Positions 17,822 through 45,197 of a stretch of DNA of 64,000 bases are shown one piece after another; position 1 is the first letter of the stretch, and the number at the start of each line of letters is the position of its first letter. The notes below the pieces were generated by a model. That model searched no databases and was not told the DNA's origin. It saw nothing but the letters and a program-made list of their open reading frames with translations. A program made the translations under genes and the position numbers. The stretch spans positions 1,683,720-1,747,719 of the forward strand of contig OX422189.1 in assembly GCA_949130485.1 (NCBI GenBank), read 5' to 3'. This DNA is from Agelas oroides. Taxonomy: Eukaryota > Porifera > Demospongiae > Agelasida > Agelasidae.

Positions 17822-18200
17822 CTTCAGCCACCTGCCTAGAGCTCTCCATACCTGTCCAGCAACCTGCCATGCAGTCTGTAATACAGCCAGAATGTGTGAG
17901 TACGTGATGCCAGCCCCAATGCAGATGGTCAGAGTCACCCTGGTCCTAACTACCCTGGCCCACACGACTTCCTCATCCTGGCCGTAGTTGTGACATCCAT
18001 CTGTGCCTTACTGAATCCCACTTCTCTTGTGTTTGGGATAGCAGCAACCATCTTGGCTGTTAGAGGTATGGCAACTGCGGCATTGGCTTTGATCATCTGT
18101 GACATTGTCCATACCCTTGTGATGGCCATTTTAGGCATCGGACTCGACTGGTTTCCCTGTTCCTTAATCAATACATCTATGATAGCCACTCAGCAGGCCA
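17822..18200 (+). pseudogene. Frameshifted dispanin copy
   Basis: Follows the 16658 gene and repeats its sequence from the proline-rich part (CAGCAACCTGCCATGCAGTC) through both membrane segments. The frame changes near the PNYPGPHDF motif, and the segment between the two hydrophobic stretches is shortened (AVRGMATAALAL instead of the longer basic loop). The C-terminal end reads DWFPCS rather than the usual tail. It looks like a decayed tandem duplicate. Confidence 0.8.
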
Positions 18201-18295
18201 TCATCAGCATTAAAGTTAGTTGGTTGGCGCTATCCCAAATACAAGAGAAGTGGGGTCCACAGTAAGGCACAGATCGATGGATGCGACTTTGGCAC

Positions 18296-20034: not shown

Positions 20035-20823
20035 TCACTCACAATCATAAACATTGATGCTATCAAAGAGTAAAAGGAAAAGAAACTGCAATAGGTTACA
20101 TGCACTACAAAACCACTGTTCTACACTATTGAGCATAGATCTAAGATTGATGCACCTAAGGTGATACCACTCTCCGTAAGAGTCACAGCATACCATGTTG
20201 TCCCATGTCTCGGGTGTTTGACAGGTACAAAACACTTCTATTTCATGAAATGGGAAGTGCATCTGTTTAGGCTTATAGCCGATGGAGTGCGGGAAAGAAG
20301 ATAGTTTCCTCTGGCGAAAGCACCTCTCCAGGTGTTGTCTCATCTTCTGGTCAAACACAATTATACTTACATCATCTCCCAGAGCAGCATGGTACTCGCA
20401 ATTGCAAATACACCACAATCTTTTGTGCCATGCTGTTGCTTGATGTTTGGCACATTCACCACCAGGTGAGGGTTGAATCTTTCACCATGACACTTGTCAT
20501 GGATGGACGAAATGATTTTCTTCTGCTGCTCTCGGTCTTCAATCACAAGCCTCGGTGTTGCAGAAATTGTCTTTCCTAGTCAAGAGAAAAGGATGCAGGT
20601 TTATATCATAGTTAATTGCTAGCCGATCGCCAAAAGTCATCGATCCTTCACTAATTTCGGAAGTGATCAGTCGATAGAGATGCATCTCCTGTGCTTGGAA
20701 AAACTTAGATTGTTTCCAAAAAGCGAGTTTGTCGTCTTTCTGGACTGTTTCGGGGTACTTTCCATGTTTGATGTAGCCGTAGATCTGTTGATATGTGAAT
20801 TTCCCCTCACTTTCAGCTTCCAT
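20035..20823 (-). pseudogene. PHD-finger / integrase-type transposon gene fragment
   Basis: Reading the minus strand, the first part contains FTYQQIYGYIKHGKYPETVQ, resembling the stretch before the zinc-binding motif in integrase-bearing (Ginger-like) DNA transposons and related host genes. Further on a TKDCGVFAIA motif resembles the cysteine-containing site of Ulp1-type proteases. The last part is a PHD finger: VFCTCQTPETWDNMVCCDS, then GEWYHLRC and WFCSAC. The reading is interrupted and the catalytic integrase core is not visible, so this is a decayed, internally shortened copy. Family naming is an inference from motif order. Confidence 0.6.
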
Positions 20824-20945
20824 TGCTTTAATTGATACATGTAGCTTCGAATATAGCTTTTCCTACGGCCTACAGATTTCATATCCTTGGGCTATTAGAC
20901 TTCACTCAATCACGGTACAACCGTTGACATCAATTGACATCAATT

Positions 20946-22856: not shown

Positions 22857-25800
22857 ATGGACCTGCAAGGTATGTTCACATGTTCCTTGCCCGTAGTGTG
22901 AGTGAACATTAATTTACATTCAGAAAGTGAATATCTCAATTCTCCTTACATGTTAATCCATTTTAACTACAGTCATAGATAGTAGAGTAGTAGGACTACT
23001 CTACTATCTATGGTTACATGCATGTAAGTGGATCAGGTATATGATCTTTGCTGTCTGTTATCCATAAGTATCGTCTTGGTGGCCTGAAACATGCATCAAA
23101 TGTGCAAGTGGTTCTGTGCCATTGTACAGCATGCAGCCAGCTGAGACCACCAAGATGCCCGTTTCTGTTCATGCTAATATAATAATATGCTGTCTCACAT
23201 CTGATTGAGGATGATGACATTGTTATCATGCAAGGATTGGCATTATTATCACAGATGATGATGATGCATTTGGATCTGCTGAAGTAGATGAACAGGTATT
23301 GCTACTATTGTCCAGTGTGTATTTGTCAATTTCAATTAGACAGCTCTTATTGTTGGCCTGATTGCATGCACTAGCAGATAGAAATGCATGATTAGTTCAA
23401 GAATTTAATTTGTCTGTCCATATAACTATTTGAGTTCGAATATCATGGTAAGAACGATATTTGTTCTTTACAACTTGCAAGAGGTAGGTAGAATGGAGAT
23501 AGAGGTAAATGGGGTGAGGTAAATGGGGTGTTGCTAAAGCAACAATATATTTACATGACCCAGATTTCAAAACGATGGCACTTGTTGTGAATGTGCTGGT
23601 CGTCCAACCATTTAGCTTGACTTGGCTCTTTACAGCAGCGGTACTATAAAGTATGCTGGATGGTATGTAAAGATAAGATCATTAATTTTCTCAGCAGGTA
23701 CACTGCATGCTGCCGAAAAACCTGCTTGGCCATCACATGCATGCCACTGCAAAAACAAAGTTGTTATTTTAGCTAAGTATTTGGTTACTACAGTTGCGTG
23801 ACTATCCTTACTGTGCAAATTTTATGAATGCATTGCTGGAAATGAATTCATGCAGTGGGAGCTGATACTTGAATCAACTTTACTACAAGCACATTTTTTG
23901 AATTAGCGTAGGAAGGACAGTGACGCAATTGTAGTAACCAAATAATTAGCTAAAACAACAATTTTGTTTTTACAGTGTGGATAATGGGACAACACACATG
24001 GCTAGCTACCATCCACCTTTTTTCAAGTTTCACATAATTTTCCTGTGCCTGCATCTATACTGATTGTGCTCAAATTGTGGTAATATGCTCCTTCCTACCA
24101 CTCAGTCCACTGTGTGCTCAAAATTGTGGTAATATGCACCTCCCTACCACTCAGTCCCACTGTGTGCGAGAGATAAAGTGTTGGGATGTACAGCATAAAT
24201 AGACAGTAATGTGTTCTGAACATTAGGGGCATCTGTTTTCTTCACGATGAGAGTATATAGGAGAACAGAGGAATGGGGGTGAACAAGCTGGATTTGTTTA
24301 TTGAGTAATTGCATGCACAGCAATAGTTGTTAGCTATGTCAATTACGAATGAAATAACACAGACGACAGTAAAGCATTCTTATCCATGACCCACCAGCCT
24401 CCCTTCATACCTCAGTAATAGAGGCATGCCTTTTAAGTTTACTCATTTGCTATGATAGAAACGAAAAGTTTAAAGTGCACACAGACCACCTATGTAGCAT
24501 GTGATCCACTAAGCTTCTCAACACCATCTGTTCAGCTTACTCTCAACGTAAAAAAGTTTATCCATTTACAAGTAACAAATAAGATTATTGGTCAAAAGGG
24601 AAGACACTTATCAAACCACTAAGTTACAAGTACAAGCATGGCTACTTTCAATACTGCAGCATTTTACATGTTGTATGGGGAGACCACATAATGAGGCCAC
24701 AGAAAATAGGCAGTATGCTATATACATGTTATCACAAGAGCTTGTTATGGCTACAGAAAACATCACAATAAGGATACGAAAAAACTTTCTGATTGGACGT
24801 TTACAGGCTGTAGAAGAGGTGCTATGAAACCGAGCTACAGAAATATTCTGTGATTGGCGTAGTAGTTTACAAGTTGTATGGGGAGACCACCTATTAAATT
24901 ACTACTGCCACAAATAGCTAGTTATAGCTAGCCTCGTTCCCAGGCCCCACCCAGCTTTCCATCACTTGCAGTATGGAAAAGCCCGTACTGTAAGCGATAG
25001 AAAGCTGGGCGGGGCCTGGGAACGAGGCTAAGTTAGAGCCACAAAAAAGTCCCAGATTGGTAGTTTGAGCTAGTATGACTAAATTTCCTGATTAGATGTT
25101 TACAGCCCTATGAAACCATTATTATTGAACTAGAGCTACAGAAATATTCTTGATTGGCAAGTGTAGTAGTTTACAAGTTGTATGGGGAGACCACCTATTA
25201 AATTATTATGGCCACAAATAGCTAGTATAGCTACAAAAAAATGATCGGCAGTTTGAGCCATGACCTGAATACGTAAAAGTGGTCAAAGTTCTTAAACACC
25301 TACCCAACCACATAACTGTATTCATGTGCAGAGCTGTGCATAATTTTCTATGTTGAGAGCTTTTCATGTTCATGTGCAGAACTTTTCATGTGAGATATTT
25401 TTCTGTTAGTCTCAGCAATGAAGTCAGATAACTAAGACAGAATTCTACCTCTAAGATATTGAGGGGGATTAACTGTTTGACTGGTAATTTTTTTGTTTTC
25501 AAGTCTACAACTTCAGGATCCAGCATGGACCCAGATAAACATCCAAGTGACCAGGAGGTTGAACAGGTGGCCACAAAGCAGGACACAGAAAACAAATCTG
25601 GTAAAGAGAAAAATCAATTATTATAGGAAAATCATCTTGTATTACAAAAGCTTTTGATAATTTCCCATAGCATTAATACTACAGTTAGCTACAGCTACCT
25701 ATTTATGCATGTATTATTTGTACTTGGTCAATCAGTTGAGGTCAATTTTTCAGGTATGCCAGGTGCTGCAGCTCCCCAACAAGCAACCCTATGTTGATAC

Positions 25801-28800
25801 AGTCCTGGAAACTTTCATTCTCTACCCATCTATCTCCTATTTAACTATAGAGGCAGGGTGGTATATTGGAAACTCTTTTAATTTTTTGGGCCAAGTGTAC
25901 GGAAAAAATTTTCAACCTATTTTCAGCCATCAGAAAGTGCTTTTGTTGAGTTCATCAACTTCATACACCTCACAGTATAGGCCCTATCTATACAACATAT
26001 GGGTATATAGCTAGTGCATATTACATGGTGACTGTCTCGTTGCCACCGTTCAGTTTTGATCACTTCCAGTATGCAAAAACTGGATGGTGGGAAGGCCTAG
26101 GAACGGGCTACGTATTACATACATTCTCTGGAAGGTTCCAGGGCTTTCCTCCACAAAATCACACTCGATCAGGGCTATGCTAGCACAGCACATGTTGCTT
26201 TACTCGACACCCCTCAAACGTCAGTGGTAACAGTCATAAACGACACTTTGGAAGGGATTGACACTGCTGCACAGTATATTATCAGTATATTCACAAAAGT
26301 TTATTCTTCTAACACCATTGATTTTTATTCTTCTAATTTTATCACCAGCTTCTTTTGTTGTTTCAGCTTTCAGAATTGATGAAATTGTCAGTGAGCTGCT
26401 GGGTGCGAACCTTCACCTCAGCATTCATGTACACCAAATCCCTGAGGAAACAGTAGATGGCAACACTGACATCAAGACCGAGAGCAAGCAAGAGGTTGGA
26501 AGCTGGATTGCCTTACAAGATAATGCTCCCACATGCTCCAAACTGCTTGAGCCTCTTGTTCAGTCTGGACTTGTGGTCATGGAAGACACTCAGAAACGTA
26601 AGTGTTAGATGAGTATTGCATACCAGCAAATAGAACTGCGGCAGTCCCAGGAATCAAACATTAATCCATCATGTATTTCATTTGCATCGCTGCATTCACA
26701 CACCAATCACTGGACTTTTAAAAATCAAGGGCAGACCTTATAGATGCTGAGTAGATGCATCAATATCTGACATGCTATGCATATGTATGAGCATTTCCCT
26801 TAACAGAAATTTAGTGGTATATCACTTTGAGCATAGCTGAAAAATGCATGATGATTTCAACCTGCTTTCATTTTTGAACAACATCTGCTTCATTTTTGGC
26901 CTCATTTCAACACCATTAAAAGTGATGTAATGTTAATTGAGCATACATGTATTTATGGGAACCTATACTGCAGCCGTTTTGTGATATCATAGCTTTCTGT
27001 TGATGTCAGGGGCATGTCTACATGCCGTTCTTAGACAGTAATGTTTTTCATACAGAGAGTTCTGAAGAAGAGATGAAAGTGAATGGTGGAATTTCCAGCA
27101 AAGAGAGCGATGATGAAGAGGAGCAGAAAGGTTAGGACAGTTGGTTCTTGGTCAGTTGCAATTATACCAACCTCCTTGCTGCCATGAGTACATGATTATA
27201 ATTTCCTTAAATGGTCATTGTACCATTATAGCAGCCAGGTGTCATTAGCCTTGTTTTCAGGCCGTCCCACATGGCCTGAGAACGAGGCTAAAGTGTCATT
27301 TTGTGTCCATAATGAAGTACTGTGCCAAGAGAGAGAGAGTATGTTTATAAATTTGGCCAAAGAGCAGCAAAAATCCTTTCAATATATTTCAGCATACCTC
27401 CTACACTCAGATCATGTTCCATGGATGTTTGCATGTGTGTGCATGATATGTCATCAAGTTTAAGGGACACTTCCAAATGAACATCTTGAGTACAAAATCA
27501 CTTTAGTCTCTTCTTTCAGAACACTACTTAATCAGCATTTCTGGAAGCAGTTGGCATTGCTTTGATCTTGCACATCTGCATGTATCGCCGGTACCAAATG
27601 CTTCTGAAATAGGAGACTTAACTAAGGAAGAAGCTCCTCTGTGGACTTTCAAGAACACCTGTTTGAATGCATTCTATGGACTTCTGATAATGTGCAATGC
27701 ATGATGCAATGGTGTGAGAATTATCTAAAAATATGGTAAGTGTTTTTACAGTGACAATTAATTTGCTATCTGGGCACATTCTGACATGAAATGATGTATC
27801 ATTGGGGCGAGCCTGAGCGAGCCCCACACTAGTGGGACTGCATTGCAGAAGTGTGTGTATCTATCTATGCCTGCTTGCGGCCATATACCGTAAATTGCGC
27901 ATTTAAATATTTCCCGAAAATTGAACGTCCTCGGCCTCATGCACCAGAGGAGGTCGGACATGGTTGAACTTTACTAATTAAATGGCTGAGGTCACACTAA
28001 TTGATTTTTCGTATCTCAACAGACTAGCTCTCTTGACTTTCACTGAGGTGGGCCCCAGTTTTCAAATCAGGATTCAAGGCTGGATCCAGTCATAGAAAAA
28101 GCTAAAAAAACTTTCTGCCTTGCAACATCAATTAGTGTGACCTCAGTTGTTTTAATTAGCAAAGGTCAACCATGTCCGACCTCCTCTGCTCATGCACAAT
28201 GCTGCCAGAGTGCAGCGTCGGCAACCGTAGTGGAGACGGCTCAAGTTGAAGCACACACGGCACCTTACTTCTTGTTTGTCACAGCAGCTACGGACTGACC
28301 AGCATCAACGGCAGGCTGCTCGCAGACCGTACAAAATGACACACCGGTACCGTTGAGATCGCTTCAGGTAAGGGTCGTGCATAAACGGCACTCATAAATG
28401 CTAGCGATTCAGCTCATGATTTCAGCGTGAAGCTTATAGTCTATTCATGTGTAGCCATAGTAGCTGCTTGCTCAGGCTCGCCCCCACCATTTTCTAGTAG
28501 TAGGTGCCGTTTAATGAAGTACCAAGTGTACTGTGCCATCACAAGCAATTACTGGTAGTACATACTTTTGTAAAAGAGCTGCAAAGATGTTTTCAATCTA
28601 TTTACTATTTTGGCACACCATTTATTGTTCACAAACATGGCCAGGTGTACATTTTAGATCAATTTTAATGCTTGTATTTTGGATACAAAACACAGCACTA
28701 CATTGGCGTGTGAATGGGGTGCTTATGTCAAAACACTGAAAGATAAACTTGTGAAATTGCAAATCGAACTGTTATGATTTTGTAGTGAGAAAAATAGCTA

Positions 28801-31800
28801 AAACCAGAAACAAGCCTTGAGAAAGAATAGAAGAGTGTGCAAAACAACATTTGCCTCAAGTCAGTGTAGTGTATTAGAGCCTGTCACTCATATGGCATGT
28901 ATTATGAACTATACTTGTGTACTCCCAAATTGAAACTGAAAGAGGAACAGCAACACGTGTTATTCATGTGGCTAACAGGCTTCCAGATGTGCTACAATAG
29001 ATTGTAATCTTTGTTTGTTTTGTAACAACTAGTTAGCTGACTGCATGCAAGTAGGTAGCATTTAGAATGTGTAATGAGAGAACAGGTTAATGAGACAACA
29101 ATACATAGGTGATGGGCACATGGTCTGAGGGCCATGGCCATCCGTGTCCCACAGCATGCTTCTTTCATCACATCAGCTGCCCTCTAATGCTTTCCTGCTT
29201 CTTTGAGGGTTCATATCACTGTTATCGTCTTGCTTTGCTTGGTTTACGTATGTTGCCTTCTTTGATGCATTTGTGTATCATACGAGTCATATGTTTGACG
29301 AACCTTGTTCCAAGACTTCACAGCTTAGCATTGGTTGCTTGTTCTCAAACCCTTATGATACCATCCAGGAATAAAGTTATGTTGCGGTGTTAGTATAATT
29401 ACCACTTCGGTTACTGTTGATTTCACCTTGCTTCGTGAGCATGAAGCATAAGCATGAAGCAACAATGCTCTGCATGCAAGTACTAGCAAGTACACACTTG
29501 TACTTGTACAAGTACATGCACGCTGACACACTCATCACACACTATTAATTTGAAGTGGGGTAAAATTTAACCACATTTTTGTTTAGTCTAACACATTATT
29601 GGAAGTTTAATACCAAAGTAACCAAACAGGTTTTCTTGAATCAGCCTCTTCTTTCAGAAGATCCATTTGGTTGTAAACATTTACACATGATCAACCTCAT
29701 ATTCCAGTTTTCTACTACTAATTGTACTGGTGTACGTACTAGTTGAGCTGTAGAAAGGAGATTTGGTTACATTCCTGGAATTTTTACCATAACAAAACAA
29801 TCCTACAGGACCAGATGTGCTAAACGGCGAACCTCTTTCACAAATGCTGATTTGTTTTATTGGGGCAAGCCTGATCGAGCTCCACACTAATGTGGCCTAT
29901 AGGAAAACATGATCTGACTAACAGACTGACCGACCGTTTCATCCCAGTTGTGTGTGCCAAACATGTAACAGACAATACAATGTGTAAACAAGCCAAGCTG
30001 TTCACAGAATGCAGACTGGCATAGTGGCAGAGTTTGTTCCTCAAGCACACAGATAAGCCAGTCTGCTTAAAGGGTCAGCATGAATTTTTTCCTGCTATAC
30101 AGCTTTTAGTTACGTGCACAACTTGCCATTGTGTCAATTGAATATGAAGTGCGTAGGTGCTATCAGCACACATGGCAACTAAGCTGCCTCAAGAAAGGAC
30201 AATTAATGAGACAAACAAGCTAGCTAGGCTGTGTGCTCTCAGACAGCAGAGATTTCCATCCTAGCTTTGCCGACATGTGTCATAGCTTCATGTGTGGGTG
30301 CATACTCTGAGTAAGAACTTCCTTCGCTACTATATAATCTGTGGGATCAGTACTGCATTTTGCTCAAACTCACCCCACGATGATCAATCACCTGTTTACT
30401 AGATACACACAGTGTTGAATGAGTTTCCCTCCTCCCTAGAGTTGCTTTTGAAGGACTTCATCAATGAGCTACAGGAGGTGATTGATTGGTTCTACCTGGG
30501 GATGTGCCTGGATGTTCCCATACCAACCCTGCTGACGATAAAGAGGGACCTCAGGAATACAGATGAGTGCAGAACAAGGATGCTAGAAGCATGGATGAAC
30601 CAAGAAGAAGAGCCAACATGGTCAAAAATAGTTGCTGCACTCCGCGAAATGAAGAAAACAGCTCTGGCTGAGCAAATTGGCTCTAAATTTGGTGGGTTGA
30701 TACTTAAAAAAGCAGTCTGACTTCATTGCATTAACTATGTACTATAGTCCTGTTGTCAGCCATGAAACAACTTGTACAACACAAACAGCCCTAGCACTGT
30801 CGTCAGAAAGTATTCACACATGTGTGTGTGTGCCGCGTATACTAGCTGCGGCTATACTATTTGAAGGTGGCATTTATTTTGCTTAGAGCTTCCGATTGTG
30901 CAACTACTATTCAAGGGCAGAGACTATTTGAGGGTGGCGTCTATTTGAAGAAATACAGTATATAATTGAAGTGTTGGTGTAAATGGTTGGTGAAAAATTG
31001 GAGCTAGAGGGCCCTCAGAAATGCTTTAGTTGTACTTGGAAAGAAATGTTTTTAGGGAAAAAACAACAGTTGAGTTCAATGTGTGCAAATAGCTTGTGAG
31101 GAAACGGTAGCTTCGTTCCCACCCAGCTTCTCATATTGCTTGTAGTATGGAAAGCAGGAGAGGGCCTAACGATATTTCATCATGTGAGTGACATTAGTGT
31201 GGAAAGAATGGTAAAAATGGTACCATTGAGACAACAGCAATAGTATCATTTTGTGAAAGTTGAACTGCATTGTTGTGTGATAAATTATGACTGAGCGCCA
31301 ATTATCTATGTGCAGTGCATGTCTTATACATTAATCACAGCTGTGTTTGGAGTCTACTTGGCTGTCAATTGTCTTTATTTCTAGAACATCATATAAATAC
31401 ATTTTTACTTCATAAGTGTCAGTCACAATTTTAAGAGATACAGTCCTCGAATCTCAGTTGCTGTGAACTCTAGTCACAGTTATTTGCCTACTGTCAGTGC
31501 ATGTAGCATTATAGTGTCTGAAATTCCTGAAAACAGTACAATTTTGTTTACTGGTTTGATTGTGTAAGCAGTATAGTTAGCTGAGATGATAATTATAAGG
31601 TGGAATGTCTCTATACCAGATGTGGCGAGTGCTCCAGAACCAGAGACTGAAGTGAAGGTGAGTATTTTATGACCTCCATTATGATTACTGCATTCAAGTT
31701 GTGAGATATGGAAGAGTGGTTTTCAGCTTAAGTTGTGAATGACATAATGAAAGGAAAAACAAAAAACAAATGAAGGACATAATTGCTAGGCCAGAAGAAG

Positions 31801-34800: not shown

Positions 34801-37800
34801 TATGACATTCACTGGAAACAAACGCACAGAATGGAGGTCGATCCTGAATCTCACATGCTTTTATCTTATCTTGCTACACAAAACACATGTGTACTTACCA
34901 TAGTTGTAAGTGTATGCAGTAGTTGCATGTTCCTTGGCAACTTTGTTGCTCATAGCTGGTTCATGCTACGACCCTACTGACATTGCTGTCTAATTTTTAG
35001 TTGCTATAATATTATTTGTACTTTTGTAATGCAGATTTACTAAAGGCTTTGAGGGAGGTGAAAGCATGGTATAAGCTTGGCTTGTGCTTGGGTGTCCCTG
35101 TGGAGGTACTGCAGGAGATAAAGAAGAAGCACATAAGTCCAAAGAAGCGTGCAAGGAAAATAGTCACGGCCTGGATGGAGAAGGAGATCACTTCATGGGA
35201 TAAATTGGTCCGGGCTCTGGATGACACTGGAGCTACTAGTTTGGCCTGCAGAGTTGCTAACCGATATGGTAAGCTATTGAACGGTGGTTAAAGGGTTAAC
35301 CTCTTCACTGCTGTATTAGGTTACAGTGATGGCTTATGTGATCAGAAAACTGACATCTGATGTAATAACTTAATCCATCAAGCTACTCACCCTCTCACTT
35401 TTCTGGAAAGTGAGAGATTTTCTAGCTCTAATAACTAAGCTCTTTATTGCAGGTGTTCGAATTGTACACAAACCTGGCGAAGGGGTTCCATCTGTTGAAG
35501 GGCTCTCTGACCCAACATGGGAGGTATGTTTAGGATGATTGATATAACAGCAAGAAAGGCTCGTAAAAAGATAACTGACTCAAATTAAAGTCACCAACAA
35601 AATTGCATAAAGCTTCAATGAGTACAAATGCTTACCCAGGAAAATGTCTGCTCAAGACATTATAAACATCAGTTATGCATTCATTACTGATATATATTTT
35701 ACTGAAAACTTGACTAGTCACTGCAAGGGTTGTTTTAATATTCAGAGTAGGGTAGAGTGAAATGCCGGGCATAGTGGAGTGGGCCTGAGCTAGTGCAGTT
35801 GCAAAACATGAAGTATAGTGAGCCAACTAGTCTACTATGCTGACTAAAGCTAGAGGAAATCCTCTACTGCCCTCTGTTGTGACTCCTTTGCTTAAGGAAC
35901 AGTTAGAAAAAGTCCTCTATGTAAGTAACTCAGATGGTGTGGCTAATGTAACTGTCTGCACTCAGATGACGTGGCCTCAAGTTCTTGAGTTTTTGGACTT
36001 CACCTTTGAAAGTACATGCATCACTCAACATGCATACAGTCCTCTTTCACAATCAACAGCCATTGACGTAATGCCTGTGACTTGTGAAAATGTATTTGTT
36101 CAGATATTGCATTTGTTTGTTTTTGTCTGCATAAACTGAGTTGTGATCTGTCCCAGCAACAAACAAGTGAGCATGCCCACACTCAAGCAGCAGTCTCATG
36201 CTGTGGGACCCACTCAGGCTTGCCCCAGTAATAATATCTAATGCACTCTTCTACACACCTACAAATACAACTGCAAGAGACACATACCTGCATGGACATA
36301 CGTATATCATAAAGAAGTACACCCAGCTCACTTTGTTTTATCTTTCATACACATACAGTCTGTAAAAGCCAACCCAGAGGAGCAGACTGTGTTTTTCCAC
36401 AAAGAAAGTGACGGACGCAACTGCCTTGTGTGTAAGATCATGAATTATGTATACTGACAAAGAACAGAAAACCACTGTCTCTCTTAACAATGTTTATGAA
36501 ACCAAACTGAGTGCAAATTTTCCCATCTCATATTTAGGGGATTTCAGCATACCAGAAGTCGAGGAAGTTGAAGAAGTTGAAGAAGTTGAAGAAGTTGATG
36601 TTCCAGGTGTTCCAGATGCTGAAGAGGAGCAAGGTGAAAGCTACACGCAATAGAATGGCCAATGCCATTTCCCTAAGCATACCATTTATGCTGTCATGGT
36701 AATGACATTTTGTGCCTATTAAAATCTGGCTAATGATGTAGTTCCAAGAAGAAAGTGAGAAATAAATACACAAGGAATAATCTGGGATTCAACCTCAAGA
36801 CCTTGTGAACACTTGTCAGATGCTCTCACCACTAAGGCACTTGGGTCTCTGGCAGAGGAGTGGAAGACAAGCTACGTACATAAGCAGCATTGCCTAGAGG
36901 CCTCAGCCGAATTCCAACCGATTCTCACTCTCGAGTGCGGACTAAACTGGAACAGGATGAAATAAGCAATCTTTAAGGCCCAGTTAAATCAGTTGAAATT
37001 TGGCTGAGGCTTCTAGGCAATCTTACTTATGTGACTTGTCTTCCGCTCCTCTGCCCAGGGGCCCAAGTGGCATAGCAGTGAGAGTGTCTGACTAGTATTC
37101 AGGTCTTGAGTTGGAATCCAGGCTGAAACCAGGATTTTTTTTTGTATGTGTGTGTGTATATATTTCTCACCTCTCAGAACATCATCATTATACATGAGTG
37201 CCTACTGTCACCTATACTAAGTAACACCAGGCCTATACAAGGTGTTCTGTACATGTGCAGCCACATTTGAGGAGGCATGCATGTAACTCGTACATGTATA
37301 AACGTTACAGCAAACCTGAAGGACTTGGTCTGTGAGCTGCAAGAAGTGACAGACTGGTTCCATCTTGGAATATGTCTGGGGATTCTCTTGGCAAAGCTAC
37401 AGTCCATAAAACGAGACTACCGACACATTGATGAGCGCAGAAGGGAGGTATTGCTGGCATGGAGAGACAACGAAAAGCCGACTTGGTCCAAGTTGGTCGG
37501 TGCACTTGTGGATATGAGAAATCTGTCACTGGCATATCAGATTGCCGGAAAATATGGTAATAAATAAATATACAAACCATTTGCATACTTTGGAGGGACT
37601 GAGTATGGGAAATGCTGCAGTCCAGCTAGTATCCTTCCTATCTTTCCAAACCCATATATTCATACTACATGTTGGGAGGCTCATGACTCCCTGCCCCCCC
37701 TCCCAGCCTTGTACCCAGCCTGTTAAGAAATAAAAATGGCCTGGCAACTTGCGCGGGTTCAAACTATTTACTTGTACTGCCCTAGAGTTGGGAAATGGCC

Positions 37801-40800
37801 TGGGTACAAGGCTATCCCCCCACCTCCCAAAATGAAGCTCCTGAGGTAGGTACTAGCTAATTCAGTTGCTGAGAGCAAGCTGTGGCTGCCCAGGACATCA
37901 TAGCTATTGCACAAACCAAACTTACTGTGGCATGTGCCCTAGGCTTTGGCTTATCACTGCTGCTTGTTAAGTCAATGGATGTTTATTCTTTGTAGGTGTG
38001 CCAGTTACAACCACAGAGTACGTGATTGAAGAAAGCCAGCCGGTAATGTATAAAAAAGTTTGTGTAAGCAGATGCTATAACAAAAGATTTTTTGCATAGT
38101 TGTTGAGAGACATAGTGCCGCAGTAACCAATGTGCTGAGATTTGCTGGACTAACACTCAGCAAAATAGATATTTTATTGACAGCATTTCAAACGGACTAT
38201 TCCGATCTTTAAAAAAGATTTTTAAAGCTTTCTCTGGCAGTTGTGAGTGTTGAATCTATTTTCCTTCAGGGTGAAAGTGAAACAGCTATGCTACAACCTG
38301 GTGGGAGAAAGCCAAGTAAGTGCTTGCTGCAGTTTTTACACAACTTCATAAACTTCGATTGGACAGTCCATGGACTAGTAGCTAAATGAGTAGGAATTAC
38401 AGCAGGCCACAGTTATGGAATCTAGATGATATGGCTTAGACTTCAGTTGGATGAATGGCATTCAGTCAGAAACTCCACAACGCTTACAGATGCTTTGCCA
38501 CTTGCATTGCTTTATAGTCTTGTGTACTTCTTGCAAGCAGCAACAGAAAACACACAACACCAGTACAGCCATGGACACACTGGTCATAGTGGTTCCTACT
38601 GCCTTGAAGTTACTGATAATACACTACATGGAGTTGGACATGACCAGCAACTGTAATCATACTACAGAATACTATTATACATGCATACACTAATGCGTGC
38701 ACAGGTTTGAAGGACCTGTTGAGGGAGCTACAGCAGGTGATAGAATGGAAGCACCTCGGTCAGCTTCTTGGACTTTCAGAATCAGATCTAGAGGCCATTT
38801 ATGAGGAGAATGAGACTACTGAAGACTGCCGGAGGGAAATGCTACTCCTTTGGATGGAGCGAGACCCCGACTGTAGCTGGAAGAAGATCGTTGATGCCCT
38901 CATTGAGATGAAGGCTGAGACTCTTGCAGCACAAATTGCCTCCAGATATGGTAACTAACTAATAAAAAACACTTATCATACGTCTAACTCATGCTAATGT
39001 ATGGGAGTGAATGGGGAAGCCTTGCAGCTATGTGCAGTAAATTTATAAAAGTTACTACAAGTCATGCGAGAATCCGTATCAGTACTACAAGTCACGCGAG
39101 AATCTGTATCAGGACTGCGTCTGGACGTGAAATGAAATCGAACCATAGTACCAAGCTATATATATACCGGAAAGAAATATCACTCGTTTGTTGCCATTGG
39201 CATTGTTACTTGTGCTGCGCACTCATAGCAATACAAATGGCAACGAACTCATGATATTTTCCGGTATAGCTTTATATATTGTGGGGGTGCTTGAAGCAGT
39301 GCAGTGCGGTGTGAGATGATTAGTATATTACCTACCATTTTCTTTACATAATAGCTCAAGCCATCTGAATAAGATATGAGCTTTTGAAGCTTATTGTAAA
39401 ACATATGACAGTGCATTGGGAGATACGTACTACATAGCTTGAGCGGGGGAGGTTGAGGTGATGGGTAGTAAGTGTCCGCTCAAGCAACATGCTTGTATAT
39501 TATATTTACTTCACTCAGATGTGCCAATCCCACAGTCAGTCAAGGATCTGGCAAAAGCTGAAGCACCGCAAGAATTAGGTTTGTACTCCAATACAACCAA
39601 TATGTATTTGCAGATGATGTTTTGTGCAGGCCATAGGCTGGGTTTGATTATAAGCACCGATCTCAAGCTGTTTAATCCACTGAGTCTAGCACTTTGCTGC
39701 ATGAATTCTCTTTCACAATTCAGTCTCCCAATGGTGGACCAGCCATTTCCTCTTCTTATTGAGGAACTGCTGTACAGGCCGACTCTTGTCACTGTTTTAC
39801 TGAAGTGGTTGGTAGCTCCATATCTTCAAGCAATTGCCTGTACTACCGAAGCATGGACATCAATGCTCATGCAGGCACAAAGTGGACATACATACCTACA
39901 TACACTCCAGCATACACTGCCTCAGTGCCTAATCCACAATCATGAGCTGTGCACCAGTTGAAGCACTCAACATCAGGCCCATAGCCAGGATTTTTAGAAG
40001 GGGGGTTACATGGGTGTCTGACGTGTATGTATGCATGTATAAGCATGCAAGACTAGGGGGGTCTGGGGGCATGCTCCCTCAGGAAATTTTTAGAAATTAG
40101 ATGCTCTGAGATTGCTTCTGAGGCCATTTTGGGACAGAAACAGGCATAGTAGCTACATGGCTCGCGGAGTATTGCATCCAATTTTTGGCTGTCCATGTAT
40201 GCATTTGCTAAGCCAGCTGACTTGGAATTTCTACGAGAGAAGGTACTACAGTTGGCAGAACAGCAGGTGACATCACTAGAAGGACAACTGGTGAACTCTC
40301 GAGCGCCTGAAATAGCGGTTTATTTACGCGTGTAGTTACACGCGCATGTCCTTTCATCGCAGTGGCGCAACCAGCTTACACGCGCATTCCGCTCTGGTAC
40401 ATGGTCCTCCATGAACAAATTTGCATTGCTGCAACCAGACTCGTTTGGATAGCGGTGATTCTCAATAGCAGCAAGACTAGTGGACCACTTTCAAATGGTA
40501 GGGCACTTAAAATGTGCAGTTAAGCAGTGTATATAAAATCTTTTGGAGGCCAAAAGGGGGGTTCGCTCGAACCCCCTCGAACCCCCCCTGCCTACGGGCC
40601 TGAACATGCAATAACAATATTGCAGCAGTATGGCCTGTACACTTATGCTATCATCTCTTCAGCTCAACAAATGGTGCATTAGAGTATACGGTATATATCA
40701 TTTCAGGCATTGACATTCTTTTCAGGTATTCTATCTCCTCCTCAAACAATTGTTGGAGTGGCTATGAGGGATCTTCTCAGTGAGCTGCAGGAGCTTACTA

Positions 40801-43800
40801 ACTGGTTCTACTTTGGAGTATGTGTGGGAGTTCACCAATCGATGCTGAAGGAGATAAGGCAGGACTACGAGGATACAGAAGAGTGCAAGAGAGAGATGCT
40901 TGCTGTGTGGAGGAATAAAGAGATTGCTACATGGTTCAAAGTGATTCGTGCACTTGCTGACGTTGGAATGCCCAGACTTGCTCTTGAAATTGCCTCCAAA
41001 TATGGTATGCCTTGTGAACATAAAATAATTCTGCTACAGTGAATTAGTTTTGTGCACATGCAAATCATTCCATTCCATGGCTTCTGTTATGCTGCACTAT
41101 TTATCCCCCTCAAGGTGAGACTGTTCCACTCTCACTGCACGAAGCAGTGGATAAGATGAAACATGATGTAGCAGAGGTATGCTATTAGCACGGTTTGGAA
41201 ATAAGTTGCAAGTGGACCAGTTTTCATGTGCTAAATTTTACTGTGCACACAGGCCCAGAAGCATGGTGCCACTGAGAAAGAAGGTACGACCTTAGCTTTG
41301 GTGTTACTGAATCATGCAACTTTAGCTTGGGTTGCTTTATTAAACAGTGAGGGATGATGTTGGACAGCCTGAGGAAGAGAGGATTATTCCAGACTATGAG
41401 GAAAAAGGTAAGGAAAATGCAGCAAAATTAATACAAAAACTAGAAAAGCTTGTTACATTTTGTGTTTGCTAAGAATTTTTGTTATACTAGGTATTGCATA
41501 TCCATGTGCAAGTATACTTATGTAACCAGTATTTATAGGTCTTATAAAAGAGTACTGAAAGTCAGTTACATATGTACACAGCTTAGTGCAATTTGTTGAT
41601 TGTTCAGGGGAGGTGAAACTCAAGGATCTAGTGAATGAACTCCAAGAGGTGACAGACTGGTTTGCCCTTGGTGTCTATCTGGGGCTGGAAATGTCCACCC
41701 TCGCAAGTGTGAGAACGGATTGCATGGGAGTTGATGAGTGCCGAAGGAGCATGCTTGGGATATGGATGAGGGAACAGGAAGCCACCTGGTCCAAAGTGGT
41801 CCATGCCCTGGTTCAGATGAAGATGTACCATCTAGCAGTTCAGATTGCTTCTAAGTACAGTAAGTAAACACGATTTTTACACCAGTGCACTAAGTATAGT
41901 TTCAATCACAGCCTGAATCTCGATCATTATACCAACAGAGGCTCCTATTGCAAAGTCAGCAGTGAAAGCCATGCGAGGCAAGATACCTGAAGGAGAGGTA
42001 TGTAGGACAATTGCAGAAACACACAGAAGACAATAAATCCCACAACCTTCGAATCATGTATACACATTGTGTGCATTTGTACCCTATAGCTGAGGATCCT
42101 TGAAGTGGTACAGGGTGAAGAGGAGACAGACTCAGGTAAGAGCGTGCCTGTTGCGACCCGAAAGATGGTGAACTATGTCTGAATAGGGCGAAGCAGGTCT
42201 GACTACTGAATGGTTTTGTGTACCAGATGTGTTTAGTACTTTACAACTGTACCATGGGCAGTATTTTACTAAACTATATGACTTCTTATCTCTTACAGAG
42301 AGTTCTAGTGATGAAGGAGAAGGTAGAGTGCATTGTATTGATACATATAACTACACCCGAGATATTGTAAGGTAACTTTACTGCTGTGTGTTGTCCGAAA
42401 GTGCCACACAGACCTTATGGTGATGAGGCTAGTGTCTTTGGTCAGTGAATACATCATGAAGCTACACTGCCAGTGCCACTTGCTGGTAGTAACTGTTGGT
42501 AAAGGGCTTAGCCTTAGTCATAATCATTACTGCTAGGTTAGGAGTAAGCATAGCTATGTAAAATAACCGTGTGATTCAACATGAAATGTGGTTGATGCAT
42601 AACTGTGTTTATACTCATTTCTCCTGAAGCTTCGATGTACGTACCATAATTCTTCGAATAGACGTCGCCCTCAAATAGTAGCCGCACAAAAGCAAGCAGC
42701 AAAAGCTATAGTAGCCATGGTGTCTGATCGAAGAAATACGGTAATAGCAGCAACTAAGCTCAACATCAAAAGTAAATGAACTTTCATCACCTACTAACGT
42801 GTAGACTCAGCAAACTTAGCACTAATCCTGTTATGGAACTTCATGTATAGCTTTAATCCAGTAGAGTAGAAGTTAGTAATCCTAATCCATTTACTAAGCC
42901 AGAACTGCTATTTTCATATGTTTCACAGACCTTTAAATGGACTGTTGGCTAGTTAAATAACCAATATCAAGTGTTTCAGGGTTGCTCTTCCTGTTGAATG
43001 GCAGCTGTAGACACATGACAACTTTGACAAGCAAGGATAAATTCCTAGGCAATATGCTGACTGTCAAAGTGAACTGCATGCACAAGCTTAAGTAGAGTCT
43101 AAGTGATGGCTTCATTGTTGTGTGCATTCTATTGCTAGTCATGTCCAGCAGTTTGACCCACTATAGTGGCCAGGGAATGCTTCCTCAACAGCTGTCTAAT
43201 CACTGTTGCTGGGCTCCTATACATAGCAATTAAATAGTCTTGCAAGCTACACTCTTTGGAGAGAGGAAGGGTCTGGTCACGCTGCAGTGGACAAGTTGTC
43301 ACCAATGAATGCAATTATCTAACATAGAGGTTAGATAATAATATGTTGACATCTGCTAAACATGTTGTGACGTAACTGCTACTCCATGGCAATGGATGCG
43401 ATCTTTGAAGAGCGCGGATCTCATTGGTCACTGCAAGTTTCTCCCATGGCAACAACTTGATGGTCAAAGTGTGACCAGACCCTTCCTCTCTGTGAAGGGT
43501 GTGGCTTGCGAGACTAGCAATTAAAGTGCTCATATGTGTATTGAACACCACCATATTTGGAAAACTGAGTTCTTACTGTGCTGTACACGTATGAGCCTGA
43601 ATGAATACTTGCCTGCTACTGTATTGATACTCTAGATGAAGCAGAGATGAGGGATCTTATCCAGGAATTGGAGGAGGTGACAGAATGGGATTATTTTGGT
43701 ATCTGCCTGGGAGTTCCTGGATCCACACTGAGAGCCATACGGAGAGATGAAAGGGGTGCTGAGGGTCGCAAAAGAGCAATGCTCATGGAATGGGCAAAGA

Positions 43801-45197
43801 TTAAAAAGCCAACCTGGTACAGGGTAGTCCATGCCCTTCTGGAAATGGGAATGGAAGTGCTAGCAAAGAGGATTGCTGAAAAGTATGGTAAGGACTGAGT
43901 AACCACATCAGAAGGGTTTGCTGACCCTAGTGTCAAACTACTGGAACACACTGTTCCTCAAAGTAGATTTTCTGATCACATTTGTTATTGTTACTGTGTA
44001 CTGATTCTTTGCTATGCAGAATAATTAGTTTAGCAAGGAGAGTCAGATACTTAAATGTTAATGCCTTAGTAGAACTGCATGGTAACTGCATGGTCACTGC
44101 CCACATGGTCACTGCCCACATTGTCACTGCCTGCATGGTCACTGCCTGCATCAGTTACTTTCTTTCAAAGGCCTTCCCTGCTCAGTCCCTACCCCCAGTT
44201 TGGTATCACAGGAACTTTATATATTGCTATGCCATGCTGTGTTTACAGATATACCTATACCAAAGAATGTCAGAAGGCGTCGTCGTCCAGAGCATCTACG
44301 GGTGGAGGAAGAGGAGGAACAAGAAGCACAACCATCGGTAAGTTGTACAACTGATTAGCCTAATTCCCAAGCACTCAGTTCTCACCCAGCTTTTCAGTTC
44401 TAATGCAAGCAATGAAAAGCTGGGTGAGACATGGGAATAACACTAACTGTGAATGTAGGAAAATGCTCATAAGTAAAAATGTGAACTTTTGATGTGTCGA
44501 CACTTCCAACACTGGTCAGCAGTAATCATGTTCAAACAAAATTCAGGATTTTTGGTCACCGTATTTGGAGGTACTGGATGGCTCACTCTTAATATAGTGG
44601 TCTTACATAATAGTGCATAATCATGACATGATTTGATTGACATGACCATGGAATTGGGATTATAACATCCTAGTACCAAATTGTCTAATAAGCATCTGTC
44701 AATAGATTCAAATTTCCTAATCTACTTTCATACTCCAGATGACAGCCCCAGTGCACACTCAAATGCCACCTCCAATGCCATACCCAATGCCATACCCAAT
44801 GCCATACCCAATGTACCCAATGCCACCCCCAATACCACCCCCAATACCACCACCAGTGCTATCTCCAGTGCCAGTCCAAGTACAAATGGCTGAAGATATC
44901 CCTCGTCCTGACTATCCAGGCCCACACAGCTTCCTTGTTCTTGCCGTAATTGTGACATGCATTGGTGCCTTGCTGAACTTTCCTTCCTTCTTATGCGGAA
45001 TAACAGCAACTGCCTTTGCCCTCCGAAGCAAGGGACTATCGAATGCTGGATACTATGCCAGAGCTAAGAGATACGCAAACACAGCACTGTTTTGCATCAT
45101 GTGTGACATTATTTACACCCTTGGTGTTGCTGTTTTGGCCATCGGGCTCACTTTTGGACTGTATTACTACTTTGGTGGCTGGCGTTATAATTATTAG
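22857..45197 (+). CDS. Multi-Death-domain scaffold with C-terminal CD225/dispanin module (gene 1)
   Basis: Twenty-eight exons join in one frame (3546 nt, about 1181 residues): 22857-22869, 23255-23295, 25504-25600, 26367-26597, 27056-27130, 30440-30691, 31620-31657, 34473-34539, 35035-35268, 35453-35523, 36359-36431, 36538-36633, 37311-37556, 37996-38042, 38270-38315, 38705-38950, 39519-39578, 40726-41004, 41115-41176, 41253-41283, 41348-41407, 41608-41859, 41939-41997, 42090-42135, 42299-42322, 43636-43887, 44249-44337, 44739-45197. All introns are GT-AG and every phase matches. Death domains are six-helix interaction modules of innate-immune and apoptotic complexes; CD225 modules are membrane-embedded. 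Inferred role: a membrane-anchored Death-fold scaffold with the Death domains in the cytosol. Start: ATGGACCTGCAAG opens the first exon and the paralogue has an equivalent exon. Alternative: the last exon starts with ATG and could be a separate dispanin gene. Frame continuity in both paralogues argues for a fusion but only transcripts can settle it. Confidence 0.78.
23750..23980. mobile_element. Foldback MITE in gene 1 intron 2
   Basis: Arms about 75 bp: GTTGTTATTTTAGCTAAGTA and TATTTGGTTACTACAGTTGC are mirrored on the right by GCAATTGTAGTAACCAAATA and TTAGCTAAAACAACAATT. Confidence 0.75.
24064..24172 (+). repeat. Two-copy tandem repeat
   Basis: GTGCTCAAA(A)TTGTGGTAATATG followed by a CCTACCACTCAGTCC stretch occurs twice, about 56 bp apart. 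Confidence 0.8.
24627..25290 (+). repeat. Degenerate intronic repeat array
   Basis: At least four units share TACAAGTTGTATGGGGAGAC or variants plus GCCACAGAAA and GATTGG...GTTTACA. A family A MITE (24929-25030) is inserted. Related units occur at the matching place in gene 2 (47990-48250), so the array predates the gene duplication. Confidence 0.7.
24929..25030. mobile_element. Family A MITE, 102 bp
   Basis: Near-perfect hairpin from TAGCCTCGTTCCCAGGCC to GGGCCTGGGAACGAGGCTA. Flanks AGTTATAGC and AGTTAGAGC form a 9-bp duplication with one mismatch. Confidence 0.9.
26367..26597 (+). CDS. Gene 1 exon 4: divergent Death-fold-like exon
   Basis: A phase 1-1 exon of 231 bp, the same class and size as the Death-domain exons. 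Its C-terminal half reads SWIALQDNAPTCSKLLEPLV, which lines up with the W......PTWSK(IV)(IV).AL pattern of the seven clear domains. The N-terminal half (FRIDEIVSELLGANLHLSIH) lacks the W-x-x-LG motif. It may be an eroded or strongly diverged Death domain. It is absent from gene 2. Confidence 0.6.
27056..27130 (+). CDS. Gene 1 exon 5: acidic linker
   Basis: Phase 1-1 exon of 75 bp encoding SSEEEMKVNGGISSKESDDE. Removal would keep the frame; gene 2 lacks it. Confidence 0.65.
27246..27290. mobile_element. Family A micro-MITE, 45 bp
   Basis: TAGCCTTGTTTTCAGGCC and GGCCTGAGAACGAGGCTA around a tiny loop. Flanks AGGTGTCAT and AAGTGTCAT form a 9-bp duplication with one mismatch. Confidence 0.8.
27795..28512. 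mobile_element. 718-bp insertion in gene 1, empty site in gene 2
   Basis: Flanked by AATGA at 27790-27794 and 28513-28517. Gene 2 has one AATGA at 49229-49233, with the same sequence on both sides (GACATGAAATGA, then AGTACCAAGTGTACTGTGCC). Inside are inverted GGGGCGAGCCTGAGC and GCTCAGGCTCGCCCC and an inner foldback (about 27935-28195, GAGGAGGTCGGACATGGTTG). Confidence 0.85.
30440..30691 (+). CDS. Gene 1 Death domain 1
   Basis: Single phase 1-1 exon, 252 bp. Core motifs: INELQEVIDWFYLGMCLDV, CRTRMLEAWM, PTWSKIVAALREM, ALAEQIGSKF. These match helices 1-2, 4, 5 and 6 of the Death-domain pattern. It is almost identical to gene 2's DD1 exon except at its first ~22 bp. Confidence 0.85.
31620..31657 (+). 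CDS. Gene 1 linker exon a1
   Basis: Phase 1-0 exon encoding DVASAPEPETEVK. The following exon 34473-34539 (phase 0-1, PGGRSVVPLNMTYIDSSQ) completes the linker to DD2. Gene 2 keeps both (51000-51037, 51897-51963). Confidence 0.75.
31995..33159. mobile_element. Foldback element with ~480-bp arms
   Basis: Starts CACTGCAATAACTACT and ends AGTAGTTTTTGCAGTG. The arms share TTACTCCAGTTTCAGGGTT, the ATTCATG/CATGAATAAAATTAGTATG stretch and GGCTGCTCGGTGGAGTACGA. The short open frame at 32457-32699 is in the loop and looks non-coding. Related arm sequence occurs at 45763-45820. Confidence 0.85.
33312..33733. mobile_element. Older CACTGTAAAAAC-family MITE
   Basis: Diverged copy: CTTGGGTTACTTCAACCACA at the left, GGTTGAAGTAACCTAAACC and TTTTTACAGTG at the right. 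The interior resembles the copies at 33839, 62215 and 62801. Confidence 0.65.
33839..34292. mobile_element. CACTGTAAAAACATTTGGG-family MITE
   Basis: Inverted ends CACTGTAAAAACATTTGGGT with TACTTCAACCATA continuing inward. TA duplication at 33837-33838 and 34293-34294. The interior is itself largely palindromic. Confidence 0.88.
35035..35268 (+). CDS. Gene 1 Death domain 2
   Basis: Phase 1-1 exon, 234 bp, the most diverged of the seven clear domains. It reads LREVKAWYKLGLCLGVPVEV at the start, then IVTAWMEKEITSWDKLVRAL and LACRVANRYG. It is rich in lysine in the middle helix. No counterpart was found in gene 2, where exon 51897-51963 passes directly to DD3. Confidence 0.82.
36538..36633 (+). 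CDS. Gene 1 acidic EEV-repeat linker
   Basis: Phase 1-1 exon containing EVEEVEEVEEVEEVDVPGVP, made of a repeated 9-bp GAAGAAGTT unit. It follows linker exons 35453-35523 and 36359-36431. The donor of the latter (GTG T|GTAAGA) and the acceptor TTTAG at 36537 were chosen because they keep the frame. Confidence 0.65.
36730..37190. mobile_element. Two tRNA-derived SINE-like units head to head
   Basis: On the plus strand, box A TGGCATAGCAGTG (37068-37080) and box B AGTTGGAATCC (37109-37119) have tRNA-gene spacing. On the minus strand, box A TGCCTTAGTGGTG (36827-36839) and box B GGTTGAATCCC (36784-36794) mirror them. The sequence between is also inverted (ATTGCCTAGAGGCCTCAGCC against GGCTGAGGCTTCTAGGCAAT). 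They lie in the intron before DD3 of gene 1. Confidence 0.72.
37311..37556 (+). CDS. Gene 1 Death domain 3
   Basis: Phase 1-1 exon, 246 bp: LQEVTDWFHLGICLGILLAK, then RREVLLAWRDNEKPTWSKLV and LAYQIAGKYG. The linker exons 37996-38042 (GVPVTTTEYVIEESQP) and 38270-38315 (GESETAMLQPGGRKP) follow. Gene 2 counterpart at 52655-52900. Confidence 0.86.
37708..37813. mobile_element. Short palindromic MITE (CCTTGTACCCAG type)
   Basis: AGCCTTGTACCCAGCC at the left and GGCCTGGGTACAAGGCT at the right. It is a variant of family A ends. Confidence 0.65.
38705..38950 (+). CDS. Gene 1 Death domain 4
   Basis: Phase 1-1 exon, 246 bp: LLRELQQVIEWKHLGQLLGL, CRREMLLLWMERDPDCSW and LAAQIASRYG. It lacks the aromatic after the tryptophan seen in most sister domains (EWKHLG). 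Gene 2 counterpart 54095-54340 differs at few positions. Confidence 0.86.
39519..39578 (+). CDS. Gene 1 linker exon after DD4
   Basis: Phase 1-1 exon encoding DVPIPQSVKDLAKAEAPQEL. The neighbouring sequence (about 39290-39770) is almost identical to 54670-55140 in gene 2, so the long open frame through it reflects recent copying, not an extra gene. Confidence 0.65.
   Translation: MCQSHSQSRIWQKLKHRKN
39974..40602. mobile_element. 629-bp insertion, CAGGCCC ends, 5-bp TSD
   Basis: Ends CAGGCCCATAGCCAGG and CCTGCCTACGGGCCTG are inverted. The perfect duplication AACAT lies at 39969-39973 and 40603-40607. The matching interval in gene 2 (about 55740-55910) has no such element, so it inserted after the gene duplication. 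Confidence 0.9.
40726..41004 (+). CDS. Gene 1 Death domain 5
   Basis: Phase 1-1 exon, 279 bp. A short leader (GILSPPQTIVGVAM) precedes LLSELQELTNWFYFGVCVGV, CKREMLAVWRNKEIATWF and LALEIASKYG. Linker exons 41115-41176, 41253-41283 and 41348-41407 follow, in phases 1-0, 0-1 and 1-1. Confidence 0.85.
41608..41859 (+). CDS. Gene 1 Death domain 6
   Basis: Phase 1-1 exon, 252 bp: LVNELQEVTDWFALGVYLGL, CRRSMLGIWMREQEATWS and LAVQIASKYS. It ends AAG TAC A|GTAAGT, the only one of the set leaving an A rather than a G. Linker exons 41939-41997, 42090-42135 and 42299-42322 follow. Confidence 0.86.
43235..43516. mobile_element. Family B MITE with 9-bp TSD
   Basis: Ends TAGTCTTGCAAGC and GCTTGCGAGACTA, with inner GGAAGGGTCTGGTCAC mirrored. 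Perfect duplication GCAATTAAA at 43226-43234 and 43517-43525. Confidence 0.9.
43636..43887 (+). CDS. Gene 1 Death domain 7
   Basis: Phase 1-1 exon, 252 bp: LIQELEEVTEWDYFGICLGV, RKRAMLMEWAKIKKPTWYRV and LAKRIAEKYG. It is the last Death domain before the membrane module and is more basic than the others. Gene 2 counterpart 58704-58955. Confidence 0.86.
44249..44337 (+). CDS. Gene 1 basic/acidic juxtamembrane linker
   Basis: Phase 1-0 exon encoding DIPIPKNVRRRRRPEHLRVE followed by an acidic tail. Its DIPIP opening resembles other linker-a exons (DVPIP after DD4). It ends TCG|GTAAGT in phase 0, matching the ATG-starting last exon. If the intron were retained a TAG would follow within eight codons, giving a form without the membrane module. 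Confidence 0.7.
44357..44440. mobile_element. Family A-like hairpin in gene 1 last intron
   Basis: TAGCCTAATTCCCAAG ... CACCCAGCTTTTCA mirrored by TGAAAAGCTGGGTG ... GGGAATAA. Ends are decayed. Confidence 0.55.
44739..45197 (+). CDS. Gene 1 last exon: CD225/dispanin module
   Basis: Encodes 152 residues. A methionine/proline repeat region (MPYPMPYPMPYPMYPMPPP) comes first, then RPDYPGPHSF and two hydrophobic segments, FLVLAVIVTCIGALLNFPSF and LFCIMCDIIYTLGVAVLAIG, separated by a basic loop with SKGLSNAGYYARAKRYA. The end is aromatic (YYYFGGWRYNY). It closely resembles the free-standing gene at 16658. The ATG sits exactly at the exon start, so a separate transcript is a live alternative. Confidence 0.8.
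   Translation: MTAPVHTQMPPPMPYPMPYPMPYPMYPMPPPIPPPIPPPVLSPVPVQVQMAEDIPRPDYPGPHSFLVLAVIVTCIGALLNFPSFLCGITATAFALRSKGLSNAGYYARAKRYANTALFCIMCDIIYTLGVAVLAIGLTFGLYYYFGGWRYNY

Follow-up and report, generated by a model that had tools for sequence, protein, structure and literature searches.

The genome of the sponge Agelas oroides carries what appears to be a gene in which seven Death-domain exons are followed, across a phase-0 junction, by a terminal exon with a CD225 (dispanin-type) module. We consider it rather probable that the whole chain is translated as one polypeptide of about 1160 residues, in which a cytosolic string of seven Death domains would end in a CD225 hairpin serving as its membrane anchor. 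The gene lies in the window, that is, the whole stretch of 64,000 nucleotides that was analysed (contig C7, positions 1683720-1747719), and the genome searched comprises 259 Mb in 141 contigs.

A sequence-only reading of this DNA had placed the gene at 22857-45197, and both ends, the ATG and the stop, were found to be correct. It had also counted 28 exons and about 1181 residues in one frame; the single frame with matching phases stood, and the count was revised, the gene being rebuilt as 27 exons encoding 1163 aa from the ATG at 22857 to the stop ending at 45197, with the exon limits taken from splice site and phase. All 26 introns are GT-AG, the phases are all compatible, and the single stop is at the end. 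In the following list, copy 2 is a tandem paralog in the window, and C20a and C20b are paralogs on another contig, C20.

22857-22869, + strand: E1, putative exon; frame and splice sites fit
25517-25600, + strand: E2, putative N-terminal exon; conserved in copy 2
26367-26597, + strand: E3, putative exon; frame and splice sites fit
27056-27130, + strand: E4, putative exon; frame and splice sites fit
30440-30691, + strand: DD1 exon, phase 1-1; PF00531 E 2.4e-4, just under the cut-off
31620-31657 and 34473-34539, + strand: linkers L1a and L1b; splice sites kept in copy 2
35035-35268, + strand: DD2 exon, phase 1-1; PF00531 E 2.1e-4, just under the cut-off
35453-35523 and 36359-36431, + strand: linkers L2a and L2b; conserved in C20a
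36538-36633, + strand: linker L2c; acceptor alone conserved
37311-37556, + strand: DD3 exon, phase 1-1; PF00531 E 1.9e-4, just under the cut-off; in three paralogs
37996-38042 and 38270-38315, + strand: linkers L3a and L3b; splice sites kept in copy 2
38705-38950, + strand: DD4 exon, phase 1-1; PF00531 E 3.6e-8; six-helix bundle in AlphaFold2
39519-39578, + strand: linker L4; splice sites kept in copy 2
40726-41004, + strand: DD5 exon, phase 1-1; PF00531 E 1.4e-5; in three paralogs
41115-41176, 41253-41283 and 41348-41407, + strand: linkers L5a, L5b and L5c; conserved in three paralogs
41608-41859, + strand: DD6 exon, phase 1-1; PF00531 E 2.8e-6; intact in both C20 paralogs, disrupted in copy 2
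41939-41997, 42090-42135 and 42299-42322, + strand: linkers L6a, L6b and L6c; conserved in C20a and C20b
43636-43887, + strand: DD7 exon, phase 1-1; PF00531 E 2.4e-4, just under the cut-off; in three paralogs
44249-44337, + strand: L7, last linker, entered in phase 1 and left in phase 0; the donor forms the junction with the C-terminal module
44739-45197, + strand: terminal exon, a proline-rich stretch followed by CD225 with two hydrophobic segments; begins AG|ATG

Among the 22 exons running from DD1 through L7, 21 have a counterpart with the same length modulo 3 and conserved splice sites at both ends in one or more of the three paralogs, L2c being the exception. This recurrence indicates that the backbone is right, while the first exons stay uncertain. 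E2 keeps both splice sites in copy 2, E4 is supported by its donor alone, in C20a, and the test against copy 2, C20a and C20b gave no splice-site support for E1 and E3; the assignment of E1, E3 and E4 to the gene is thus uncertain. E3 was tried as a new N-terminal domain and dropped, since it had neither another match in the genome at E 0.1 nor a Pfam match. As all seven Death exons are of phase 1-1, each is a cassette whose skipping or copying would preserve the reading frame. The linker exons are rich in acidic residues (72 acidic vs. 31 basic among 290). A Pfam search of the assembled protein at E 0.01 returned Death, CD225 and a sub-threshold DUF1824, and no NACHT, TIR, kinase or caspase domain.

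The Death family profile PF00531 (curated cut-off 22.6 bits) matched every Death exon taken singly (7/7, E 3.6e-8 to 2.4e-4), with DD4, DD5 and DD6 over the cut-off and the other four at 21.6-22.0 bits, and the whole 1163-aa protein reached 106.3 bits (E 9.3e-31). A profile built from 12 rows of the window matched THOC1, PIDD and FADD. The AlphaFold2 model of DD4, one of the seven domains, obtained with the same 12 rows, is a six-helix bundle (pLDDT 89.8). The best 30 Foldseek matches to this model were all Death-domain structures, including FADD, DR3 and RIPK1, at E 0.004 to 0.2 and TM-scores to the query of 0.62-0.86, nothing falling below E 0.001 (best 4e-3). When DD4 was run against non-animal collections, none of the 134 pattern matches in genome contigs and none of the 17 in viral contigs was confirmed.

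Death domains in the same position are 68-96% identical between the gene described here (copy 1) and its paralogs, the value for DD6 of copy 2 referring to its remaining 68 residues; for DD1 the values across three paralogs are 90-96%. When a copy 1 domain was compared with other positions of copy 1, C20a and C20b, identity did not exceed 57%. The higher identity between same positions indicates that the Death array is old and is not being homogenised, and such positional conservation would fit a separate partner for each bead. Genome-wide, at least 150 Death-type exons match DD6 (150 of 552 candidates were scored), many of them on contigs C10 and C11, and judged by these matches this is a large Death-domain expansion.

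The terminal exon scanned alone matched the CD225 profile PF04505 at 30.1 bits (E 5.2e-7), above the curated cut-off of 27.1 bits; within the 1163-aa protein the module scored 24.9 bits (E 2.2e-5), under the cut-off, and the CD225 exon of copy 2 gave 29.7 bits. The two families named from the letters, seven Death domains and a C-terminal CD225, were thus both matched by profile in the predicted protein. The description of the module as two-segmented also proved right, as the only two segments of the whole protein above hydropathy 1.6 (residues 1071-1101 and 1125-1157) both belong to CD225. Its loop bears the A-X6-A pattern (A109 and A116 of the exon), invariant across the three CD225 proteins of the window, and the loop glycines are spaced G-x4-G. 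No GD pair occurs anywhere in the exon, the double cysteine of helix 1 is absent (the exon cysteines, at 74, 86, 119 and 122, are never adjacent), and there is no GxxxG in the loop, the sole GxxxG of the exon being GLTFG at 136-140 in the second helix. According to the excerpts consulted, G-D and the double cysteine are the most conserved dispanin patterns, not strictly defining ones (PMC3282796), and GxxxG at 91-95 of the IFITM3 loop is tied to oligomerisation and function (PMC9716219). A SNARE-like role has been described for CD225 in the part of PMC11730294 consulted; by analogy it is possible for the present module, in which the loop GxxxG tied to that role is missing. The structure model of CD225 was poor (pLDDT 55.9), and the matches of the CD225 exon to solved structures were rejected as chance (best E 0.66).

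The tandem paralog lies downstream of the gene and is laid out as follows.

48605-60672, + strand, 5′ limit approximate: copy 2, tandem paralog, partly decayed
near 48620 (E2-like), 50272 (DD1) and 52654 (DD3), + strand: N-terminal part of copy 2
54094 (DD4), 55981 (DD5) and 56969-57172 (broken DD6), + strand: middle of copy 2
58706 (DD7), 59446-59534 (L7) and 60280-60672 (CD225 exon), + strand: C-terminal part of copy 2

In copy 2, the DD2 exon with its linkers and the linker L6a were not found, and the DD6 exon breaks off after residue 68, where other sequence with a stop takes over (window 56969-58302). A tandem repeat within copy 2 (window 51313-51573) reads as four 20-residue units on the + strand. 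The pN/pS ratio between copies 1 and 2 was measured on seven pieces (DD1, DD3, DD4, DD5, DD7, L7 and the CD225 core; the DD6 remnant and the proline-rich part were left out) and was 0.25 over all of them (p 4e-10). The CD225 core (94 codons) gave pN/pS 0.15 (p 0.0003, uncorrected for seven tests) and, by this comparison, is under purifying selection. Constraint was not significant for L7 alone (0.60, p 0.29) or DD7 alone (0.36, p 0.12). In the DD6 remnant dN (0.026) is close to dS (0.022), as for a decaying domain.

The other two paralogs, seven-Death genes at C20:3201959-3210127 (C20a) and C20:3375310-3395192 (C20b), both possess DD2. In both, the linker homologous to L7 closes with a donor in phase 0, which reads gtaact in C20a and the weaker gttaga in C20b; its lengths are 77 and 92 with hand-set exon limits, the automatic alignment having placed the acceptor alone. 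With limits likewise set by hand, the frame continues from this donor into six further exons, which are conserved in the two genes. The putative trefoil exons lie at about C20:3211557-3214027 in C20a and about C20:3395931-3400691 in C20b, and the gene ends lie beyond. The C20a exons matched PF00167 (FGF) weakly over its whole length at E 0.0083 (16.6 bits vs. a cut-off of 24), a rougher C20a version matched at E 0.1 and the C20b version did not match; against an FGF4 chain, the domain gave E 0.07 and 0.15. These C-terminal exons are probably those of an FGF/IL-1-like beta-trefoil. The genome searches for CD225 found none on C20, and the Death backbone thus does not require CD225. A five-Death relative is located on another contig (C2:1003908-1008194). 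Downstream of its Death exons, on the same strand and up to about C2:1010050, there are two Sushi matches and a stretch judged by eye to be hydrophobic; this end possibly belongs to the same gene and was not counted as a third C-terminal type.

The closest CD225 relative found in the genome is a gene in the same window.

16658-17308, + strand: standalone single-exon CD225 (dispanin-like) gene; PF04505 E 7.3e-8 (open frame 16628-17305)

Situated 27 kb upstream, it encodes a proline- and glutamine-rich product that is 57% identical to the fused module over 92 aa (E 2.4e-26); the best relative outside C7 reached E 9e-9. Among the 36 CD225 exon matches in the genome, three cover profile positions 2-67 in one exon, and all three are in the window, including the fused module, which is held by the single exon 44739-45197 with no intron in the loop. 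The remaining 33 cover at most 43 of the 68 profile positions, as expected from the loop intron present in nearly all eukaryotic dispanins examined, to which two known exceptions are named (PMC3282796, excerpts). Since the single-exon form is confined to the window and the closest relative stands next door, the CD225 module probably stems from the lineage of the neighbouring dispanin and was taken up as a single exon. At least two of the 36 matches sit downstream of a listed Death exon at a distance of no more than 2 kb (of the 552 Death candidates, 150 were scored). CD225-like exons on contigs C22 and C18 were rejected as fusions, the 30 kb examined on each contig giving no match to a Death exon of copy 1. 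Beside the standalone gene, a second, partial CD225-like frame (window 17900-18262) shares 57% identity with the fused module (E 5.7e-11) and matches no Pfam family at E 1; it appears to be a duplicate in decay. The window also contains two AAA-type ATPase pieces on the + strand (9100-11750; PF00004 E 0.049 and 3.9e-9), which we take to resemble PEX1, and on the - strand (20038-20862) a PHD finger (E 4.3e-7) beside a possible Ulp1-type peptidase piece (E 0.029, under the cut-off), perhaps a transposable-element remnant.

At the junction between L7 and CD225, the L7 donor is a GT in phase 0 in both copies of the window, and copy 2 keeps the length of 89 and both splice sites of L7. The CD225 exon opens in phase 0 behind a clean AG acceptor in both copies, phase agreement being expected by chance in 1 of 3 cases. 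In the acceptor region, 31 of the last 40 intron bases match between the copies, and the four 40-base blocks before it have 20-24 matches each. When the L7 donor is read through, a stop follows 6 codons later in copy 1 and 5 codons later in copy 2, and the two read-through frames differ by a one-base indel; these early stops and the indel indicate that the coding region common to the copies ends at the donor. Polyadenylation signals are uninformative as evidence for one gene or two: neither AATAAA nor ATTAAA occurs in the L7-CD225 intron of either copy, and they are equally absent from the 503-528 bases past the CD225 stops, while AGTAAA was found once in each intron, and the intron of copy 2 also has a single TATAAA. 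The joining of L7 to CD225 in one transcript is a prediction from the splice sites and the phase, which agree in both copies of the window. Onward splicing of L7, with CD225 as its partner in the C7 genes, is argued for most strongly by one junction serving two plugs, CD225 on C7 and other exons on C20; the ATG at the head of the CD225 exon in both copies speaks against it, since the exon could have its own start.

The same junction could be read in two other ways. In the first, which we regard as not very likely, the locus would have a dual output, the long L7-CD225 membrane scaffold and a short dispanin of 152 residues translated from the exon's own ATG by means of an alternative promoter; through pairing with the long form, this dispanin could tune the clustering of the latter. 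In both copies the CD225 exon does open with ATG as its first codon and the module is homologous to the standalone neighbour, but no promoter or untranslated exon came to notice in the course of the other analyses. In the second, which is unlikely, two adjoining genes would have been duplicated together: a soluble seven-Death gene ending at or near L7, and a proline-rich dispanin whose coding part begins with the ATG at 44739 and is preceded by an intron in the 5′ untranslated region. The AG|ATG start in both copies would suit this arrangement, as would the existence of a single-exon CD225 gene upstream, the stops 6 and 5 codons past the L7 donor and the AGTAAA in both introns; copy 2 keeps CD225 despite a decayed Death array, without DD2 and with DD6 broken, which an independent CD225 gene would also explain. 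It agrees poorly, however, with the retention of the L7 phase-0 donor in both copies, with the continuation of the homologous linker of C20a and C20b into more coding exons, and with upstream conservation that lies mainly in the last 40 intron bases, as for an acceptor rather than a promoter; the intron without AATAAA or ATTAAA would also oppose it, but carries no information since the 3′ flanks of CD225 lack both.

The IFITM-type antiviral flavour given to the module by the sequence-only reading was not borne out, as its loop is devoid of GxxxG and G-D, the cysteine pair is missing and its nearest relative is the dispanin-like gene. It is very improbable that the protein is an IFITM-like restriction factor with added Death domains, mainly blocking virus entry at membranes: it does match the CD225 family, but the motifs just named are missing from its loop and helix 1, and CD225 proteins generally serve membrane traffic, not antiviral defence alone (PMC11730294, part consulted). 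Barely credible is an artefact of gene model or assembly, with unrelated exons joined by eye: E1, E3 and E4 do lack paralog support for both splice sites, but between DD1 and L7 three paralogs, one adjacent and two on another contig, repeat the order of the exons, their lengths and their splice sites, by which such a reading is already contradicted for that part.

We therefore return to the single membrane-tied chain, in which the L7-CD225 splice would be used and seven distinct Death domains on acidic linkers would be followed by the proline-rich stretch and then by the CD225 hairpin in the membrane. By analogy with IFITM proteins, whose N-termini are mostly cytosolic (type II), a minority having the opposite orientation (PMC9716219, excerpts), the N-terminal side with the Death string would face the cytosol. 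Each Death domain may recruit its own Death-fold partner, such that the protein would act as a membrane-bound assembly platform or a pre-linked signalosome core. The membrane-tethered Death-fold scaffold envisaged at the outset is a natural inference from one frame, seven Death domains and a CD225 end. The latter would probably derive from a single-exon dispanin like the neighbour, its coding exon having been spliced to the Death backbone at the phase-0 junction; the captured exon perhaps already had an acceptor immediately ahead of its ATG. For a Death-fold adaptor of a sponge, supersaturability and a nucleation barrier have been reported (PMC13012725, excerpts), and we speculate that, given such a barrier, a pre-linked multivalent string could seed assembly effectively.

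The sister genes, with the same string and a different end, suggest an exchangeable signalling scaffold. As a tentative proposal, which we hold to be possible rather than probable, the family may have a covalent seven-bead core, with its own partner for each bead, and may swap CD225 for an FGF/IL-1-like trefoil plug at the phase-0 junction, the CD225 form being a pre-linked signalosome core permanently tied to the membrane.

The Death domains resemble those of FADD, PIDD, THOC1, DR3 and RIPK1 (family PF00531) in profile and in the predicted six-helix fold of DD4, and differ in that seven distinct domains, each kept in its position, stand in one chain. Death-fold signalling is usually described in terms of separate proteins that meet and polymerise, and in the PIDDosome and the Myddosome several Death domains come together and recruit partners. 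In the present protein they would instead be covalently linked and tied to a membrane. The terminal module is akin to that of the dispanin/CD225 proteins (PF04505; IFITM, PRRT2 and relatives) in profile, in its two hydrophobic segments and in the A-X6-A of the loop. Dispanins of the PRRT type have a proline-rich N-terminal side, as does the CD225 exon here. Unlike in dispanins, the module stands behind a Death array and has no G-D, no loop GxxxG, no cysteine pair in helix 1 and no loop intron, the last being a feature of nearly all the eukaryotic dispanins examined (PMC3282796, excerpts).

Among the papers listed, the titles and abstract openings of the dispanin, CD225, sponge and tandem-Death literature contained no description of a Death-CD225 protein, in line with the initial remark that no described protein with this combination was known. 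In the parts consulted, PMC6019070 has Death and CD225 domains in different genes, and PMC9334734 lists them apart. The Death-domain immune genes of sponges and amphioxus are similar in that Death domains enter lineage-specific combinations (PMC12909245 and PMC2575513, excerpts), the sponge paper combining Death with NACHT-LRR or with TIR (PMC12909245, excerpts); the word CD225 is absent from the main texts of both.

Seven position-specific Death domains and a CD225 hairpin in one chain would represent a different design of signalling platform, and would link two families that are both active in vertebrate immunity. The same backbone with and without the membrane module is a natural experiment on the role of the anchor, and if plugs are exchanged at a single phase-0 intron, this would be a clear example of exon shuffling.
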